From: Hahella sp. KA22
Lineage (GTDB): Bacteria > Pseudomonadota > Gammaproteobacteria > Pseudomonadales > Oleiphilaceae
Direction of reading: 5' to 3'
DNA: 64,000 nucleotides
Assembly (NCBI RefSeq): GCF_004135205.1
Contig: NZ_CP035490.1
Location: 3,241,501-3,305,500 of the forward strand
In this document: positions 6,208-28,636 of the stretch, one piece after another
How positions within the stretch are numbered: the first letter of the stretch is position 1
Layout of the letters: the number at the start of each line of letters is the position of its first letter
Notes under the pieces: model-generated
Told to the model about the DNA's origin: nothing
What the model saw: the letters and a program-made list of their open reading frames with translations, nothing else
Database searches by the model: none
Made by a program: the position numbers and the translations under genes

Positions 6208-6382
6208 AATGGCGGGCTATTCTATAGCTAATAGGTTTCTTGATGATAGCCGGCGAGGATATACGATAGCGTTTTTAAAATAAAATTTCGCAAGCATGCC
6301 ATAGATTTGTGAAAAGAAATCGGGGCGTAGACAAATCAGTGAAGAGATAAGAGTGGGGGAGTTTAGAAAGGCGGGGTCCAGA

Positions 6383-6512
6383 AAAACAAAAAGCGCAATA
6401 TCCATATTGCGCCTTTTCCATTTGATGCTTCCTTTTGCCGGTTCCTGCGGCTCTTTTGCTATCCTTGCTGCAGTCCTTTGCGGGCTTTCCTTGCCGCGTT
6501 TTCGCATCCGTT
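6383..6512 (-). ncRNA. CsrB/RsmZ-like regulatory sRNA, distal copy
   Basis: This is a predicted RNA of about 130 nt that would bind and sequester the translational regulator CsrA/RsmA. The minus strand carries eight GGA motifs (plus-strand TCC at 6401, 6417, 6430, 6443, 6462, 6474, 6488 and 6507), against about two expected by chance in this length. Most sit in A(A/G)GGA or CAAGGA contexts. The 3' end is a perfect 9-bp hairpin (6393-6401 with 6404-6412) with GGA at its tip, followed by a T-rich run: a classic terminator. A TAATAT -10 box lies at 6519-6524. It is a diverged duplicate of the copy at 6701-6829. Ends are estimates from the promoter and terminator. Confidence 0.82.
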
Positions 6513-6518
6513 GTGGCT

Positions 6519-6524
6519 ATATTA
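6519..6524 (-). promoter_or_regulatory. -10 box of distal sRNA
   Basis: TAATAT on the minus strand, followed by AGCCACAACGG. The start point is predicted near 6512. No good -35 hexamer lies at the right distance, as expected for an activator-dependent promoter. Confidence 0.65.
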
Positions 6525-6567
6525 GCCATGGCTTGGTAGGGAGGATAGACGACATATCTGCATTGTT

Positions 6568-6585
6568 TGTAGGATATTTCGCACA
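6568..6585 (-). promoter_or_regulatory. GacA/UvrY-type upstream element of distal sRNA
   Basis: The minus strand reads TGTGCGAAATATCCTACA, against the known GacA element TGTAAGNNATNNCTTACA (9 of 12 arm positions plus the central AT). It ends 43 bp before the -10 box, exactly as in the proximal copy. Confidence 0.7.
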
Positions 6586-6700
6586 CCCTGGCGTCCCGCC
6601 TGTTCATCCTTCAATCCTTCATCCCATCCAGCCCGGGTGTCCGTACCTGCTGTTGTCTGACTCCATTCAGTCGACGCGTCCGAGCGTTCGTGCTCCACAA

Positions 6701-6829
6701 AGAAAAAGACGCAACGTTCCATGCTGCGTCTTCCGTGTCAGATGCTTCCCTTGATGCCTATTTCCGTCGGCTTTGGTCGTCCTTGTTGCTTCCTTGCTTC
6801 ATGTCCTTATGTGTCAGCGCATCCTCTTG
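6701..6829 (-). ncRNA. CsrB/RsmZ-like regulatory sRNA, proximal copy
   Basis: This is the second predicted CsrA/RsmA-sequestering RNA, about 128 nt. It has eight GGA motifs on the minus strand (plus-strand TCC at 6718, 6732, 6746, 6763, 6780, 6791, 6804 and 6822). The terminator stem AAGACGCA/TGCGTCTT (6706-6713 with 6725-6732) has GGA in the loop and a T-rich tail. The -10 box TAATAT is at 6836-6841. It shares with the distal copy the upstream element, the GCAATGCAGA block, the -10 region and the GAAGCATC block ahead of the terminator. The sequence between has diverged except at the GGA motifs. The pattern fits duplication under selection for CsrA binding. Confidence 0.84.
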
Positions 6830-6835
6830 GTGCCT

Positions 6836-6841
6836 ATATTA
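6836..6841 (-). promoter_or_regulatory. -10 box of proximal sRNA
   Basis: TAATAT on the minus strand followed by AGGCACC. The predicted start is near 6829. As in the distal copy, no consensus -35 is seen. Confidence 0.65.
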
Positions 6842-6884
6842 GGGTGGGGAGGGGTAGGAAAATAGACGCGATGTCTGCATTGCG

Positions 6885-6902
6885 TGTGAGATATTTCCTA
6901 CA
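6885..6902 (-). promoter_or_regulatory. GacA/UvrY-type upstream element of proximal sRNA
   Basis: The minus strand reads TGTAGGAAATATCTCACA. It matches TGTAAGNNATNNCTTACA at 10 of 12 arm positions plus the central AT. It abuts the narX stop codon and ends 43 bp before the -10 box. Confidence 0.75.
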
Positions 6903-8765
6903 TTATTCGGCGTATGAGATTCTGCGCTCCTGTACGTAGCTGGGAGTAAAGCTGAAAAGCACGCCGGTGCCGCCCTCCGGCATGCGCTGAATAGACAGCT
7001 CTCCGTGCAGGTTACGGGTGCGCTCGCGCATGATGGCGAGACCATAGTGGTTGAGTTTTTCCGGGTCCTCGGGAATGCCGACGCCATTGTCCGTGATGGC
7101 CAAAGTGACTTTTTTCATTGGATCTGAATGCAGTGACACCATCACCAGATTGCCTTGAGAATGACGGACAGCGTTCTGTAGCGCCTCCCGCGTTATTTGC
7201 AGCAAATGAATTTCTTCATTAGGGGAGAAGGGAATATCTTCCACTCGGTAATCCAGCACGATTTTGACATTCGCGCTTTGCTCGGTCAGTTGCTCGACGG
7301 TATGCAAAATGGCTGCATGCAGACCTTTCTCGGAAATGCTCAGACGGAATGTAGTGAGCAGCTCCCGTAACTGCCGATAGGCGGAGGTGATGCCTTCCTT
7401 GAGTTCTGCGGTAATGCCGTCGATCTGTTCGTCTTCCACCTGTTTGGATTGCAAGGCGCGAGTCAAACGGGCGACCTGTATCTTCAGGTAGGAGAGGCTC
7501 TGCGCCAGCGAGTCATGCAGTTCCCGCGCAATCACGTTACGTTCGTTCATCAGAGATACCCGACGTTCCTGGTCGCCCTGGTTTTTCAAACTAAGCGCGA
7601 CGGCGACTTGATCAGAGAAAGATTGCAATAACTGATGCTGCCAACTTTCCAGGAATTGGCTGTTACGCAGTGTGCACACTATCACGCCGTACTGAACGCC
7701 TTCCTTGATAAGAGGATAACGCACCTGCACCTCATCATTGTCCCGGCATACCTGGGCTTTCTCCACCATGCACTTTTCGCACTCCTGGCGCTGGCAGGTC
7801 GAAGGCAGCTCCGTCATGTAATCGTTGCGGATGTGCTCATAGGGAATCACCGCTTCGGGGGTTTTCAGGCAAAGTTCGACGCCGCCGACGGCGGTAATGC
7901 TGGTGAGTTCTTCCAGCCAGGCCTGAAAATCAATGTTCTCATGGGTTTTCTCACTGACTTCCCGCGCCAGATGGTAGAGAAAGTTCAAGGAGTCGTTACT
8001 GCGTTTCAGCGCCTGGGTTTTGTTTTTGACCCGCGTCTCCAGAGACTCATACATCTCCGACAGCGCATCGCTCATCTGGTTGAATGTCTCCGCCAGCAGG
8101 CCCAGTTCGTCGTCATTTTTCACTTCCAGGCGATCACTGAAATCACCGCGGGCGATTTTGCGAGCGTTTTGCGTCAGGCTGCGCAAAGGCAGTTCGACAT
8201 GATGATGGAGAATGAGCAGGGAGAAGCTGACCAGGGCGAAGGTGAGAAAGAGGGCGCTGATTTGGATCAGGCGCAGGTTTTCAATGCGATCCTCTGCGCG
8301 GATCTGATAGAGCTGCACCAGGTTGTCTATCTCATCGACAAACTTGTCGATCTTTTCGCCCAATTGGTCCGCAACGCGCCGGTCTGGATTGCGGGCGTAA
8401 GTGGCGATAAAACCGCTGACATCTTTCTCCCAGCTCTCCCGAACCTGCAGAAACTGATGATGCAGTTCTGAAGAGTTGTCTTTCATGGCTTCCGCCACCA
8501 GCACAGGGTTTTCGATGCGTTCAGCGAACTGGCGGGTCAGCGCCGCCACGAAATCCGGAGACGGCGCATTCAGTGACAGCAGTCTCGCCTGCATGCGATA
8601 GCTCTGCATACGCAGTGAACCGGCGATATTCACCGCCTCCGCGTCTTTTTCGGCAGACTCAGAGATAAAGAAAGACGCCAGCATGGTGATCATCGCCAGC
8701 GACACCATGGCGATCATTAAAGCGCCCATTCGGAAGATCAGTGATTTCTGGAATCGCGCAATCAT
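6903..8765 (-). CDS. narX: Nitrate/nitrite sensor histidine kinase NarX
   Basis: This inner-membrane sensor kinase responds to nitrate and phosphorylates a NarL-type regulator. The 620 residues contain TM1 (about 11-32), a periplasmic four-helix ligand domain with the P-box NIAGSLRMQSYRMQ (about 46-59), TM2 (about 167-187), a HAMP linker, and a central GAF-like region with four Cys (CQRQECEKCMVEKAQVC, typical of NarX). The kinase core is of HisKA_3 type: H-box ARELHDSLAQSL, N-box REALQNAVRH and G-box DNGVG. It starts at ATG 8765 with AAAGGAG upstream and is divergent from narG across a regulatory region. No narL follows it; the next transcripts are the two sRNAs. Confidence 0.95.
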   Translation of the reverse strand: MIARFQKSLIFRMGALMIAMVSLAMITMLASFFISESAEKDAEAVNIAGSLRMQSYRMQARLLSLNAPSPDFVAALTRQFAERIENPVLVAEAMKDNSSELHHQFLQVRESWEKDVSGFIATYARNPDRRVADQLGEKIDKFVDEIDNLVQLYQIRAEDRIENLRLIQISALFLTFALVSFSLLILHHHVELPLRSLTQNARKIARGDFSDRLEVKNDDELGLLAETFNQMSDALSEMYESLETRVKNKTQALKRSNDSLNFLYHLAREVSEKTHENIDFQAWLEELTSITAVGGVELCLKTPEAVIPYEHIRNDYMTELPSTCQRQECEKCMVEKAQVCRDNDEVQVRYPLIKEGVQYGVIVCTLRNSQFLESWQHQLLQSFSDQVAVALSLKNQGDQERRVSLMNERNVIARELHDSLAQSLSYLKIQVARLTRALQSKQVEDEQIDGITAELKEGITSAYRQLRELLTTFRLSISEKGLHAAILHTVEQLTEQSANVKIVLDYRVEDIPFSPNEEIHLLQITREALQNAVRHSQGNLVMVSLHSDPMKKVTLAITDNGVGIPEDPEKLNHYGLAIMRERTRNLHGELSIQRMPEGGTGVLFSFTPSYVQERRISYAE

Positions 8766-8886
8766 CGTTTCGAACTCCTTTCAGGGGGGAGTACTACCAA
8801 AGAACCGAGACCTGTCGTTAGCTCAATCAAACTATGCTTCCAATGTATAACTTATTGAAAAATATGAATAACGCTTTTCCCGCCCG

Positions 8887-8902
8887 TACCCCATAAGAGG
8901 TA
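8887..8902 (+). promoter_or_regulatory. NarL-type 7-2-7 site upstream of narG
   Basis: TACCCCATAAGAGGTA is an inverted heptamer pair matching the NarL consensus TACYYMTNNAKRRGTA except at the two inner positions. Its centre lies about 93 bp before the predicted narG transcription start and 53 bp from the FNR box centre. Confidence 0.7.
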
Positions 8903-8940
8903 TGCGCCAGGGGATACTGACGCGTCCCCAAAAAACCGCT

Positions 8941-8954
8941 TTGATTTGCATCAA
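8941..8954 (+). promoter_or_regulatory. FNR/ANR box of the narGHJI promoter
   Basis: TTGATTTGCATCAA is a perfect TTGATNNNNATCAA site. A -10 box TAGAAT follows at 8976-8981, placing the box centre about 41 bp before the predicted start near 8988. This is the class II activator position used by FNR. Confidence 0.88.
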
Positions 8955-9058
8955 TTATAGTACCCCAGGCTCTCCTAGAATGAATTTGAAATTAAAAAAC
9001 GACCTGTCTCCAACGCTGTGCTCCATGCTTCGAAGCAGGTTCTGATGAGGAGTCCGAC

Positions 9059-12000
9059 ATGAGCCATTTTCTGGATAGACTGCAGTTTTTCAAACGCAAA
9101 GGAGAGACTTTCGCGGATGGACACGGCGCCACCACCAAGGATGATCGTAGCTGGGAGGACGGTTACCGCCGTCGTTGGCAGCATGACAAAATCGTGCGCT
9201 CTACGCATGGGGTGAATTGCACCGGCTCCTGTAGCTGGAAGATCTACGTCAAAGACGGTCTGGTGACCTGGGAAACCCAGCAGACCGACTATCCTCGCAC
9301 ACGTCCGGACCTCCCCAATCACGAACCTAGAGGTTGCCCCCGCGGCGCCAGTTATTCCTGGTACATCTACAGCGCTAACCGGCTCAAGTATCCCAAGGTC
9401 AGACAAAGCCTGATCAAGCTGTGGCGCGAAGCGAAGCAAAGGCACGACGATCCGGTCGACGCCTGGGAGAGCATTGTTGAAGACCCCGCCAAAGCGAAGT
9501 CTTATAAGCAACGTCGTGGTTTGGGCGGATTCGTGCGCAGTTCATGGAATGAAGTTAACGAGATTATCGCCGCCGCTAACGTCTATACGGCGAAGCGTTA
9601 TGGGCCAGACCGTATCTCTGGGTTTTCTCCGATTCCCGCCATGTCCATGGTGTCCTACGCCGCCGGCTCCCGCTATCTGTCTCTGATTGGCGGCAACTGC
9701 CTGAGCTTCTACGACTGGTATTGCGACTTGCCGCCAGCGTCTCCGCAGATCTGGGGTGAGCAGACTGACGTGCCGGAAGCGGCGGACTGGTACAACTCTA
9801 ATTACATCATCGCCTGGGGCTCCAATGTGCCGCAGACCCGTACTCCGGACGCTCACTTCCTGACAGAAGTGCGTTACAAAGGAACCAAGACCTGCGTCAT
9901 CACCTCGGACTATTCCGAGTGCTCCAAATTCGGCGATACCTGGCTGGCGCCCAAGCAGGGCACCGACTCCGCGCTGGCCATGGCGTTTGGCCATGTGATT
10001 CTGAAAGACTTTCACGTGGATAACCCCAGTGACTACTTCACTGATTACGTGCGCCGCTACACCGACATGCCCATGCTGGTCATGCTGGAAGAGCACGAAG
10101 GCCGTTACATTCAAGGCCGTTTCCTGCGCGCCTCGGACCTGTCCGGCAATCTGGGACAGGACAACAACCCGGAATGGAAAACCATCGCGGTTAATGAGGC
10201 TACCGGCGAGCTGATTTCACCCACCGGTTCTGTGGGATATCGCTGGGGTGAACAGGGCAAATGGAACATCCAGCAACTGGATGGTAAGTCCGGCGCGGAA
10301 GTGAAGCTGGCGCTCAGCCTGAAAACCCTGTGTGATGAAATCGCGCCTGTCGCATTCCCATACTTTGGCGGACAGGAACATGAATATGACTATTTCCAGC
10401 ACACGGACCACGATGAACTTCTGATCCGCAAAGTGCCGGTGAAGCACGTGCAACTGGCGGACGGCTCTACGGTAAAAGTGGCCTGTGTGTTTGACCTGAC
10501 CGTGGCTAACTATGGCGTCGACAACGGCTACGACGATCCCGCCTGCGCCAAGGATTACTCCGACGACATTCCCTATACGCCAGCCTGGCAGGAAAAAATC
10601 ACCGGCGTGCCCCAGGCGGACGTTATCCGCGTAGCGCGTGAGTTCGCCCGCAATGCGGATAAAACCCATGGTCGCTCCATGGTCATCGTCGGCGCCGCGT
10701 TGAACCACTGGTATCACATGGATATGAACTACCGCGGCCTGATCAACATGCTGATGCTGTGCGGATGCGTCGGCCAAAGCGGCGGCGGTTGGGCGCACTA
10801 TGTGGGACAGGAAAAACTGCGCCCTCAGTGCGGCTGGCTGCCTCTGGCGTTTGGATTGGACTGGCAGCGCCCACCCCGGCAGATGAATGGCACTTCTTTC
10901 TTCTATAACCATGCCGATCAATGGCGTTATGAAAAACTGCAGATGACGGAAGTGGTGTCGCCCCTGGCGGATAAAGGTAAATGGAGCGCCTCCATTATTG
11001 ATTACAACACCCGCGCCGAGCGCATGGGCTGGCTGCCGTCTGCGCCGCAACTGGGTATGAACCCGCTTTTGCTGACCAAGGAAGCGGCGATGGAGGGGAT
11101 GGACCCGAAAGATTACGCCGTCAAACTGCTAAAAGAGGGGCAGCTGAAATTCGCCTGTGAGGACCCGGATAACCCTCAGAACTATCCCCGCAATATGTTT
11201 ATCTGGCGCAGCAACCTGCTGGGCTCCTCTGGCAAAGGCCATGAATACATGCTGCGGCACCTGTTGGGAACCAAGCATGGCCTGCTTGGCAAAGACCTGG
11301 GTGAAATGGGCGAAACCAAGCCGGATGACGTGACTTGGCGCGACGAAGCGCCGGAAGGCAAGGTGGATCTGTTGGTGACGCTCGACTTCCGCATGTCCAC
11401 CACCTGTCTGTATTCCGACATTGTGCTGCCCACAGCGACCTGGTACGAAAAGGACGATCTGAATACGTCAGACATGCACCCTTTCATTCATCCTCTGTCC
11501 AAGGCAGTGGACCCGGTATGGGAGGCGCGCAGCGACTGGGACATCTTTAAAGGCATCGCCAAGCAATTCTCCGTTGCGGCGCAAGGCCACCTGGGCGTGG
11601 AAAAAGACTTGGTGACTGTGCCGATTCTGCATGACACCCCGGCGGAAATCGCCCAGCCGTTTGGCGTCGAGCATTGGTGGAAAGGCGAGTGCGATCTGAT
11701 TCCCGGCAAAACCGCACCCAACATGGTCGTGGTGGAGCGGGACTACCCCAACACCTACAACCGTTTCACCTCAGTCGGTCCTCTGCTGGACAAACTGGGC
11801 AACGGCGGCAAAGGCATCAACTGGGATACCAAAGAGGAAGTGGCGTTCCTCGCCAAACTGAACCTGACTCACGACGAAGACAGCCCACGCGGCGGTCGTC
11901 CCAGAATCGAGAGCGCCATCGACGCGGCGGAAGTGATTCTGTCTCTGGCGCCGGAAACCAACGGTCATGTGGCGGTGAAAGCCTGGGAAGCTCTGGGGCG

Positions 12001-12784
12001 CGCCACAGGCCTTGATCATACCCATCTGGCGCGGCCGAAAGAGGAAGAAAAGATCCGCTTCCGCGACATCGTGGCGCAACCCCGCAAGATCATTTCCTCG
12101 CCCACCTGGTCTGGCCTGGAGGATGAGCATGTGAGCTACAACGCGGGCTACACCAATGTGCACGAGATGATTCCCTGGCGCACCATCACCGGTCGTCAGC
12201 AGTTCTATCAGGACCATGAGTGGATGCGAGACTTCGGCGAAACCATGTGCGTCTACAAGCCGCCGATTAACCTGAAAACCACCTCGCCGGTGATGAACAG
12301 CAAGCCCAACGGCAACAAGGAGATCCTGCTCAACTGGATCACGCCGCACCAGAAATGGGGCATTCACAGCACCTACTCGGACAACCTGCTGATGCTGACC
12401 TTGTCACGGGGCGGCCCCATCGTGTGGATGAGTGAAACCGACGCCAAGAAAGCCGGCCTGGAAGACAACGACTGGATCGAGGTGTTCAACGTCAATGGCT
12501 CCATCGCCGCACGGGCGGTGGTGTCACAGCGGGTGCCGGAAGGCATGGCGATGATGTATCACGCTCAGGAGCGGATCATCAACACGCCCGGAGCGGAAAT
12601 GACCCAGACCCGGGGCGGCATTCACAACTCGGTGACCCGAGCGGTCATGAAGCCGACTCACATGATCGGCGGCTACGCGCAGCAGTCATACGGCTTTAAC
12701 TACTACGGCACCGTAGGCTGTAACCGCGACGAATTCGTCATCGTACGCAAAATGAACAATGTTGACTGGCTAGATACAGAGTGA
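9059..12784 (+). CDS. narG: Respiratory nitrate reductase alpha subunit
   Basis: This is the catalytic molybdenum (bis-MGD) subunit that reduces nitrate to nitrite on the cytoplasmic side of the inner membrane. At 1241 residues it matches the usual length (about 1245). The N-terminal FS0 cluster motif is clear: His in THGVNC with C-x3-C in CTGSC, then a later Cys in PRGCPRG. The Mo-ligand region GGNCLSFYDWYCDLPP is near residue 220. There is no Tat signal of the periplasmic Nap type. ATG 9059 has GAGGAG-like bases upstream. It is the first gene of narGHJI-ppiC, 13 bp before narH. The FNR and NarL-type sites upstream predict induction by anaerobiosis and nitrate. Confidence 0.98.
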   Translation: MSHFLDRLQFFKRKGETFADGHGATTKDDRSWEDGYRRRWQHDKIVRSTHGVNCTGSCSWKIYVKDGLVTWETQQTDYPRTRPDLPNHEPRGCPRGASYSWYIYSANRLKYPKVRQSLIKLWREAKQRHDDPVDAWESIVEDPAKAKSYKQRRGLGGFVRSSWNEVNEIIAAANVYTAKRYGPDRISGFSPIPAMSMVSYAAGSRYLSLIGGNCLSFYDWYCDLPPASPQIWGEQTDVPEAADWYNSNYIIAWGSNVPQTRTPDAHFLTEVRYKGTKTCVITSDYSECSKFGDTWLAPKQGTDSALAMAFGHVILKDFHVDNPSDYFTDYVRRYTDMPMLVMLEEHEGRYIQGRFLRASDLSGNLGQDNNPEWKTIAVNEATGELISPTGSVGYRWGEQGKWNIQQLDGKSGAEVKLALSLKTLCDEIAPVAFPYFGGQEHEYDYFQHTDHDELLIRKVPVKHVQLADGSTVKVACVFDLTVANYGVDNGYDDPACAKDYSDDIPYTPAWQEKITGVPQADVIRVAREFARNADKTHGRSMVIVGAALNHWYHMDMNYRGLINMLMLCGCVGQSGGGWAHYVGQEKLRPQCGWLPLAFGLDWQRPPRQMNGTSFFYNHADQWRYEKLQMTEVVSPLADKGKWSASIIDYNTRAERMGWLPSAPQLGMNPLLLTKEAAMEGMDPKDYAVKLLKEGQLKFACEDPDNPQNYPRNMFIWRSNLLGSSGKGHEYMLRHLLGTKHGLLGKDLGEMGETKPDDVTWRDEAPEGKVDLLVTLDFRMSTTCLYSDIVLPTATWYEKDDLNTSDMHPFIHPLSKAVDPVWEARSDWDIFKGIAKQFSVAAQGHLGVEKDLVTVPILHDTPAEIAQPFGVEHWWKGECDLIPGKTAPNMVVVERDYPNTYNRFTSVGPLLDKLGNGGKGINWDTKEEVAFLAKLNLTHDEDSPRGGRPRIESAIDAAEVILSLAPETNGHVAVKAWEALGRATGLDHTHLARPKEEEKIRFRDIVAQPRKIISSPTWSGLEDEHVSYNAGYTNVHEMIPWRTITGRQQFYQDHEWMRDFGETMCVYKPPINLKTTSPVMNSKPNGNKEILLNWITPHQKWGIHSTYSDNLLMLTLSRGGPIVWMSETDAKKAGLEDNDWIEVFNVNGSIAARAVVSQRVPEGMAMMYHAQERIINTPGAEMTQTRGGIHNSVTRAVMKPTHMIGGYAQQSYGFNYYGTVGCNRDEFVIVRKMNNVDWLDTE

Positions 12785-12797
12785 TTGGAGACAGATT

Positions 12798-14330
12798 ATG
12801 AAAGTACGCGCTCAAATCGGAATGGTCCTGAATCTGGACAAATGTATCGGCTGTCATACCTGTTCCATCACCTGTAAGAACGTGTGGACGTCGCGGGAAG
12901 GGGTGGAATACGCCTGGTTTAACAACGTGGAGAGTAAGCCCGGCGTGGGCTATCCCAAAGAATGGGAGAATCAGGACAAGTGGAAAGGCGGCTGGAAACG
13001 CGGCGCTGATGGAACCCTGAAGCCGCGCATCGGCGGTCGTCATCGGGTGTTGGCGAATATCTTCGGCAACCCTGACCTGCCGACCATTGATGAATATTAC
13101 GAACCCTTCGATTACGACTATCAATACCTGCACACTGCGCCGGACCGCAAGCATCAGCCTACTGCGCGTCCACGCTCGCTGATTGACGGCCGTCGCATGG
13201 AGAAAATCGAGTGGGGACCCAACTGGGAGGAAATCCTGGGCACGGAGTTCGCCAAGCGCCGCAAAGACAAAAACTTTGATCAGGTGCAGGCGGACATGTA
13301 CGGCGAGTTTGAGAAAACTTTCCTGATGTATCTGCCTCGCCTGTGCGAACACTGTTTGAACCCCGCCTGTGTGGCTTCCTGTCCCAGCGGCGCCATCTAC
13401 AAGCGGGAAGAGGACGGCATTGTATTGATCGATCAGGACAAGTGTCGCGGCTGGAGAATGTGCGTCTCCGCCTGTCCCTACAAAAAGATCTATTACAACT
13501 GGAAGAGCGGTAAGTCCGAGAAATGCATCTTCTGCTATCCGCGTATTGAGAGTGGGCAGCCGACAGTCTGTTCGGAAACCTGTGTAGGCCGCATTCGTTA
13601 CCTGGGCGTGCTGTTATACGACGCGGATCGTATCAAAGACGCGGCCTCCGCCGCCTCGGATCAGGATCTGTATCAGGCGCAATGCGATATTTTCCTCGAC
13701 CCGCATGATCCCAAAGTGCAGGAAGCGGCGCGGGCGGAAGGCATTCCCCAGGCCTGGCTGGAAGCGGCCATGCAGTCGCCAGTCTACAAGATGGCGATTG
13801 ACTGGAAGGTGGCGCTGCCGCTGCACCCGGAATATCGCACCTTACCCATGGTCTGGTATGTGCCGCCGCTTAGCCCGATCCAAAACGCGGTGGAGCAGGG
13901 TCATGTGGGTATGAATGGAGAGATTCCTGACCTGAAAAGCCTGCGCATCCCCCTGCGCTATCTGGCCAACATGCTGACGGCGGGAGATGAAGCGCCAGTA
14001 GTGCGGGCGCTGGAGCGCATGATCGCCATGCGCGCCTACATGCGCGCCAGGCATGTGGATAAGGTCGAGGACCTGAAAGTCCTGGAGCAGGTGGGGCTGA
14101 CCAAATCCCTGGTGGAAGACATGTATCGCATCATGGCCCTGGCCAATTACGAAGACCGCTTTGTGATTCCCACCACCCACCGGGAATACGCGGAGAATGC
14201 CTACGACCTCAAGAGCAGCTGCGGCTTCAGCTTCGGCAATGGCTGCTCCGACGGCGACAACCCTGTGAACCTGTTTGGCGGTAAACAGGCGGCGGTGCGT
14301 CAGGTCATACCGGTGCGGCAGGAGGATTAA
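12798..14330 (+). CDS. narH: Respiratory nitrate reductase beta subunit
   Basis: This iron-sulfur electron-transfer subunit links haem-bearing NarI to NarG. It has 510 residues. Four Cys groups are visible: CIGCHTCSITC near residue 16, CEHCLNPACVASCP, CRGWRMCVSACP and CIFCYPRIESGQPTVCSETC. The Trp in CRGWRMC replaces a Cys, as expected for the single [3Fe-4S] centre. It starts 13 bp after narG and ends 2 bp before narJ, so the genes are co-transcribed. The C-terminus has the conserved NGCSDGDNPVNLFGG tail region. Confidence 0.98.
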   Translation: MKVRAQIGMVLNLDKCIGCHTCSITCKNVWTSREGVEYAWFNNVESKPGVGYPKEWENQDKWKGGWKRGADGTLKPRIGGRHRVLANIFGNPDLPTIDEYYEPFDYDYQYLHTAPDRKHQPTARPRSLIDGRRMEKIEWGPNWEEILGTEFAKRRKDKNFDQVQADMYGEFEKTFLMYLPRLCEHCLNPACVASCPSGAIYKREEDGIVLIDQDKCRGWRMCVSACPYKKIYYNWKSGKSEKCIFCYPRIESGQPTVCSETCVGRIRYLGVLLYDADRIKDAASAASDQDLYQAQCDIFLDPHDPKVQEAARAEGIPQAWLEAAMQSPVYKMAIDWKVALPLHPEYRTLPMVWYVPPLSPIQNAVEQGHVGMNGEIPDLKSLRIPLRYLANMLTAGDEAPVVRALERMIAMRAYMRARHVDKVEDLKVLEQVGLTKSLVEDMYRIMALANYEDRFVIPTTHREYAENAYDLKSSCGFSFGNGCSDGDNPVNLFGGKQAAVRQVIPVRQED

Positions 14331-28272: not shown

Positions 28273-28636
28273 GGAAGGCGCTTGCGAGATTGAAGACGAT
28301 TTAGCTCTTCGCGAAAAAAACTGCCGTGAAATTAAGCTGTTAGTTGAAAATCATAAAGATGATATGTCAAGGGTTGAACTCTTTTATCAAAATGGTTCGC
28401 CCTATGTAAGGTTTGACGGTGATAGAAACCACTATCAAGCATGGGTGCTCGAATTGTTTATACGCATTGGCGAAATTGCCAAAGGCTCGCATGGGCTTTT
28501 GTATGTCAGAGATCAAGAAAATCCAGATTACGGCAACGAGTTTCAAGTGTGGCGAATGGCGAAAGGCAAGGTTACTAAAATGAAGGATACCCTCTTGTCT
28601 CCATGTGATCCTACTATTGAAACGTATGGGGAGTAG
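28241..28636 (+). CDS. Imm7-like immunity protein
   Basis: A 131-residue cytoplasmic protein resembling immunity protein family Imm7 of polymorphic toxin systems. The start MFEYHGWVTVWE, the central YVRFDGDRNHY and the LLYVRDQENPDYGNEFQVWRMAKGK stretch are the parts I recognise. Such proteins protect the cell by binding a matching toxin. No toxin gene is in the window. The gene is AT-rich compared with its surroundings, suggesting transfer, and lies 52 bp before a SUFU-domain gene, another immunity family. Confidence 0.65.
   Translation: MFEYHGWVTVWEGACEIEDDLALREKNCREIKLLVENHKDDMSRVELFYQNGSPYVRFDGDRNHYQAWVLELFIRIGEIAKGSHGLLYVRDQENPDYGNEFQVWRMAKGKVTKMKDTLLSPCDPTIETYGE

Follow-up and report, generated by a model that had tools for sequence, protein, structure and literature searches.

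Putative tandem Csr/Rsm-type small RNA genes next to narX in Hahella sp. KA22

Tandem small RNA (sRNA) genes of the Gac/Rsm pathway have been described in Pseudomonas brassicacearum, where rsmX-1 and rsmX-2 are 75% identical, GacA-dependent RNAs of ~110 nt carrying GGA motifs and a GacA upstream box, and the same report names P. fluorescens F113 and P. stutzeri as potential further tandem rsmX cases (PMC7911923). For rsmX, rsmY and rsmZ, a palindrome located upstream has been put forward as a potential GacA site (PMC2375449). A head-to-tail pair of such genes, which the original prediction for the Hahella locus had considered less usual, is therefore an already known layout with a published precedent in rsmX (PMC7911923), and a triple array in the same Hahella genome also speaks against that view.

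The stretch of DNA analysed here, referred to as the window, comprises 64 kb of the Hahella sp. KA22 chromosome. Two adjacent minus-strand units in it are very probably tandem Csr/Rsm-type, Gac-dependent sRNA genes that sequester CsrA. Good support for the proposed tandem CsrB/RsmY/RsmZ-like pair comes from its promoter boxes, its conservation and its homologues, and from the fact that the genome encodes GacA, a GacS-like kinase and CsrA. By most of the sequence features tested, the pair would act like Csr/Rsm sRNAs outside the catalogued Rfam families. As far as searched, the uncatalogued RNA type, the copy number in Hahella, the triple array and a conserved GGA-rich spacer are new. Open-licence literature combining Hahella with RsmY, CsrB or GacA yielded no earlier report of such RNAs; a prediction may have appeared before in other literature, for example in work from 2006 on CsrA-sRNA prediction.

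The two units and their promoters

Two ~130-nt minus-strand units with eight GGA motifs apiece lie where they had been predicted (Table 1), with start positions inferred from their -10 boxes. Many GGA motifs on the transcribed strand are typical of the Csr/Rsm class, and the opposite strand contains none in either unit. Eight or more GGA were reached by 11/2000 dinucleotide shuffles of unit 1 and 0/2000 of unit 2, while the nine GGA of the spacer were not clearly above dinucleotide chance (131/2000 shuffles). GGA density alone is not decisive for the pair, since the highest count per 140 nt in the window, 12 GGA, is found elsewhere, at 28630 on the plus strand, and several other sites reach eight. 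Both units end, like other members of the class, in an intrinsic terminator, and the anticipated GGA at the tip of the hairpin was found in each. As to exposure of GGA in loops or single strands, 6 of the 8 motifs per unit have a P(unpaired) above 0.5, but folding adds little, as shuffles with fixed GGA and terminator reach the mean P(unpaired) in 35/200 and 18/200 cases, so that accessibility is not significantly above that of shuffles.

Table 1. Coordinates of the features at the narX locus (positions within the window)
Feature	Position	Strand	Basis or remark
sRNA unit 1, ~128 nt, 8 GGA	about 6703..6830	minus	GGA count, duplicate alignment, matches of covariance model R1
sRNA unit 2, ~128 nt, 8 GGA	about 6386..6513	minus	GGA count, duplicate alignment, matches of covariance model R1
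GacA-type upstream box of unit 1, TGTAGGAAATATCTCACA	6885..6902	minus	first base directly after narX stop codon
GacA-type upstream box of unit 2, TGTGCGAAATATCCTACA	6568..6585	minus	strict-pattern genome search
-10 box of unit 1, TAATAT	6836..6841	minus	
-10 box of unit 2, TAATAT	6519..6524	minus	
Terminator hairpin of unit 1, GGA in loop	6704..6734	minus	first terminator-like site downstream of narX
Terminator hairpin of unit 2, GGA in loop	6388..6417	minus	
GGA-rich spacer between units, 9 GGA	6586..6702	minus	
NarX/NarQ-type nitrate/nitrite sensor kinase (narX), upstream neighbour	6903..8765	minus	NCBIfam models
narG	9059-12784	plus	model above cut-off
narH	12798-14330	plus	model above cut-off

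The consensus of the GacA box is TGTAAG-N6-CTTACA. Each unit is preceded by an 18-bp GacA-type palindrome placed 43 nt ahead of its own -10 box, with identical spacing in both; the TAATAT boxes had been predicted, while the GacA-type boxes and the spacer GGA are features absent from the original prediction. No sigma-70 hexamer pair was reported on the minus strand at the units. A search of the 6.96-Mb single-contig genome with the strict pattern TGTRNGANATNTCNYACA found five exact places, and eight places with one mismatch versus two for the reversed control. Four of the five strict boxes precede GGA-rich units, namely the narX pair (two), the first unit of the triple array (2276161) and, at 1269372 on the minus strand, a CsrB-like gene of greater length; the remaining one, at 131195, stands before a small DUF6316 protein gene. 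The combination of a GacA/UvrY upstream box and a -10 box, characteristic of the Csr/Rsm class, also occurs in the homologues. The GacA-type boxes of units 1 and 2 constitute the strongest evidence for the predicted pair.

Several further observations concern the boxes. The DUF6316 gene behind its GacA-type box (locus L055, 1001-1305, Pfam match) is a possible protein-coding GacA target; in L104 and L123 the box is likewise followed by a similar ORF, and in L114 by one that is less closely alike. In one Hahella genome (G003, L078-L101), 24 forward GacA-type box matches were counted versus 7-8 in the other six, and at 18 of the 24 neither side showed 6 GGA clustered within 140 nt, an excess that suggests an enlarged direct regulon or another regulator. 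At L110 and L113, in two Hahella genomes, a GacA-type box precedes small ORFs that resemble each other and contain CxxC pairs, as judged by eye. Across 28 promoters, a second and weaker element resembling the box was noticed, its start offset by 22 bp from that of the first box; among offsets 18-49, this one is best on both averages. At the narX pair, it is best on the inner-palindrome measure only (6/8 and 7/8).

The protein partners of a Gac/Csr circuit are encoded in the same genome. A GacA/UvrY-family regulator adjoining uvrC at 3215382-3216023, ~32 kb from the pair, scores 315 bits (cut-off 280), and a single CsrA gene lies above its model cut-off. A GacS/BarA-like kinase at 5518407-5521208 covers positions 1-910 of the 920 in the GacS/BarA model and reaches 863 bits, just under the cut-off of 890.

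Duplication, conservation and the wider family

The units are 74% identical over 122 alignment columns, and none of 1000 GGA-preserving shuffles reaches their alignment score (0/1000). Their 70-nt promoter regions match at 48/70 ungapped positions. Units 1 and 2 are thus diverged duplicates, as had been proposed. All ten pairings of the five units in the two arrays likewise outscore GGA-preserving shuffles.

Conservation was counted over the four Hahella genomes sharing the narX pair (G000, which is KA22, G001, G002 and G005). Variable sites amount to 5/129 in unit 1, 3/127 in unit 2 and 5/110 in the ungapped spacer, so that the units and spacer together vary at 13/366 ungapped sites versus 32/169 in the downstream flank (Fisher p 1.4e-8); the spacer itself is conserved above that flank. 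The 3' end of narX varies at 74/345 sites, the unit-1 box at 0/18 and the unit-2 box at 2/18. The original prediction also held that the GGA sites were kept amid divergence. This stands insofar as both units carry eight GGA and 0/75 GGA positions vary, compared with 13/291 other positions, a difference that is weak evidence alone (one-sided p 0.048).

In an alignment of 20 units, which come from five genomes only and include many near-copies, compensatory changes were found in 9/14 predicted pairs. The 11-pair terminator stem accounts for six of these and a small helix for three; two pairs of that helix are broken in four sequences. The terminator-loop GGA is present in 20/20 aligned units and missing in two held-out units (G006_C115 and G004_C151).

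A covariance model termed R1 was built from the transcribed part of these 20 training units, with no promoter included. In total, 36 matches at E<=0.01 were found in seven Hahella genomes (seven each in G000, G001 and G005, six in G002, four each in G006 and G004, and one in G003), 20 of which are the training units. Seven copies, five of them training units, belong to KA22, which with the longer CsrB-like gene makes at least eight RNA genes of the Csr/Rsm type, spread over four places in the genome. One of these places is a head-to-tail triple array of related units at 2276161-2276850 (L061), whose second and third units are 95% identical over 208 nt and have only half a GacA box each. The CsrB-like gene (L062) holds 15 GGA in 204 nt; similar longer genes were noticed in other Hahella genomes (L080, L102, L109, L111, L117 and L120).

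Promoter boxes accompany the R1 matches to different degrees. Among the training units, 13/20 have a 10/10 box and the other seven, all later array units, score <=7/10. Within the scanned 100 nt upstream of the 16 held-out Hahella matches, five boxes score 9/10, four 8/10 and seven <=7/10, where shuffles reach 9/10 in 2-6% and 8/10 in 19-27% of cases. Three of the seven low-scoring matches are the ends of longer RNAs with full boxes further upstream, and the other four have no box better than chance.

A family search with 84 candidates scored per genome gave R1 matches in 13/41 genomes. The 21 matches outside Hahella, from three genera, provide the cleanest promoter test because R1 holds no promoter, and 16 of them have a 10/10 box and four a 9/10 box, starting 70-110 nt upstream; not all are independent, since some are near-identical copies. 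The single match without a box (L194) lacks the usual upstream sequence, and in our own reading the DNA there resembles a transposase end. An order-wide search with 11 candidates scored per genome gave matches in 4/293 genomes, a depth that is unable to show absence. Two weak order-wide matches (L133 and L134) look RsmY-like by eye, with no Rfam match at E<=1.

The narX neighbour and rival readings

The kinase upstream of the pair resembles both nitrate sensors, scoring 434 bits with the NarQ model (cut-off 553) and 400 bits with the NarX model (cut-off 578), both below threshold, and its sequence is 98% identical to the counterpart in Hahella sp. HN01. For P. aeruginosa, a connection between RsmA and denitrification has been reported (PMC11784011), and the original prediction had linked the Gac/Rsm switch to the respiratory locus of Hahella through the position of the pair. 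The pair follows narX in 4/7 Hahella genomes, and the other three have no unit in the stretch after narX; in G004 and G006, a unit shares the contig with narX at a distance of ~14 kb, and in G004, the one of these for which the intervening ORFs were listed, we read them as nar genes followed by others. Related units also occur at other loci in other Hahella genomes and elsewhere in the same genome, so the narX site may be accidental and position alone proves no nitrate link. The inference from synteny was hence rejected as unproven, and the link from Gac/Rsm to nitrate respiration keeps that status.

Transcripts of narX are expected to run into unit 1, as no terminator-like site was reported before it; within 6210-9100, terminator-like sites on the minus strand were reported solely at the hairpins of the two units. 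As read from the sequence, the adjacency of narX and unit 1 is a physical link, not demonstrated regulation. This arrangement, with the unit-1 box starting directly behind the narX stop, would also fit units serving only as the narX 3' UTR and terminator, whose GGA motifs let CsrA act in cis on narX mRNA. Such a role as sole function is very improbable, however, because unit 1 and unit 2 are each equipped with a separate upstream box and -10 box at the same spacing, and related units lie far from narX, also in genomes whose narX is without them. Divergence at roughly one in four aligned positions might likewise mean that one unit is live and the other a decaying duplicate, but both retain eight GGA, the box, the -10 box and the terminator and both are conserved in four genomes, which makes decay of either highly improbable. 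Coding potential was considered as well, since ORFs of 96-133 aa cross the units (6217-6507 and 6275-6607 on the minus strand, 6353-6754 on the plus strand). None of the three has a Pfam match at E<=0.01, and the two minus-strand ORFs overlap in different frames and have ends that vary among the four genomes (81-110 and 58-103 aa); a protein-coding region was rejected on these grounds, its probability being next to nil.

An extension of the preferred reading, two tandem sRNA genes, is that the block 6386-6832 forms a tunable sponge joined to narX, which we regard as rather unlikely. If transcription continued past the unit-1 terminator, a single CsrB-sized RNA of ~447 nt with 25 GGA would span both units and the spacer, and CsrA binding could alter termination because both terminator loops carry GGA. 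If this were true, sponge size would depend on free CsrA and on nitrate-driven transcription of narX.

Proposed mechanism and relation to known systems

In the proposed mechanism, phosphorylated GacA would bind the 18-bp box upstream of each unit and activate a promoter that has a -10 box and no evident -35 element. Each ~130-nt RNA would present its eight GGA motifs, one of them on the terminator loop, to CsrA/RsmA dimers, and capture of CsrA/RsmA by the sRNAs would free the target mRNAs. The pair belongs to a larger set of such genes, at least eight in this genome. Transcription of the pair, its GacA dependence, CsrA binding and titration are all predicted from sequence. The findings would add Hahella, a marine genus counted among the producers of prodigiosin (PMC11188435), to the bacteria with a Gac/Csr sponge system, here with an RNA type that has no Rfam match at threshold. 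Questions of gene dosage and redundancy among CsrA sponges become testable through the covariance model, the clear signature of the promoters and the tandem arrays of two kinds.

The Rfam covariance-model search suggested with the original prediction proved negative at gathering scores, as none of 4227 families matched in the window, and RF00166 rose above gathering in 0/7 Hahella genomes. Under relaxed thresholds, the only match of a Csr/Rsm family on the pair was that of CsrC at the terminator of unit 2, with 14 bits against a gathering score of 61, and unrelated families outscore CsrC on that hairpin. An Rfam family assignment for the pair was accordingly rejected at both gathering and relaxed thresholds. 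CsrB (RF00018) and CsrC (RF00084) have in common with the narX units the design of a GGA-rich CsrA sponge, and the narX units are shorter. The likeness to RsmZ/PrrB (RF00166) lies in sister unit B of the triple array, which matches the model over its whole length at 27.6 bits, below the gathering score of 44, and is the top RsmZ match in each of the four genomes with the narX pair; the pair itself is not matched by RsmZ at E<=1. RsmZ matches below threshold lack specificity, as 8/14 control genomes match at E<=1.

Azotobacter vinelandii is listed with nine such RNAs, RsmZ1-7 and RsmY1-2 (PMC7366521), so the copy number of Hahella, at least eight, is high and no record; the two large sets are likened by number alone. 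The closest parallel is the rsmX-1/rsmX-2 pair of P. brassicacearum (PMC7911923), which is likewise tandem and furnished with GGA motifs and a GacA-type upstream box. Different from it, the Hahella pair, compared by description only, occurs in another genus, consists of ~130-nt units beside narX, and belongs to a set of at least eight that includes a triple array.
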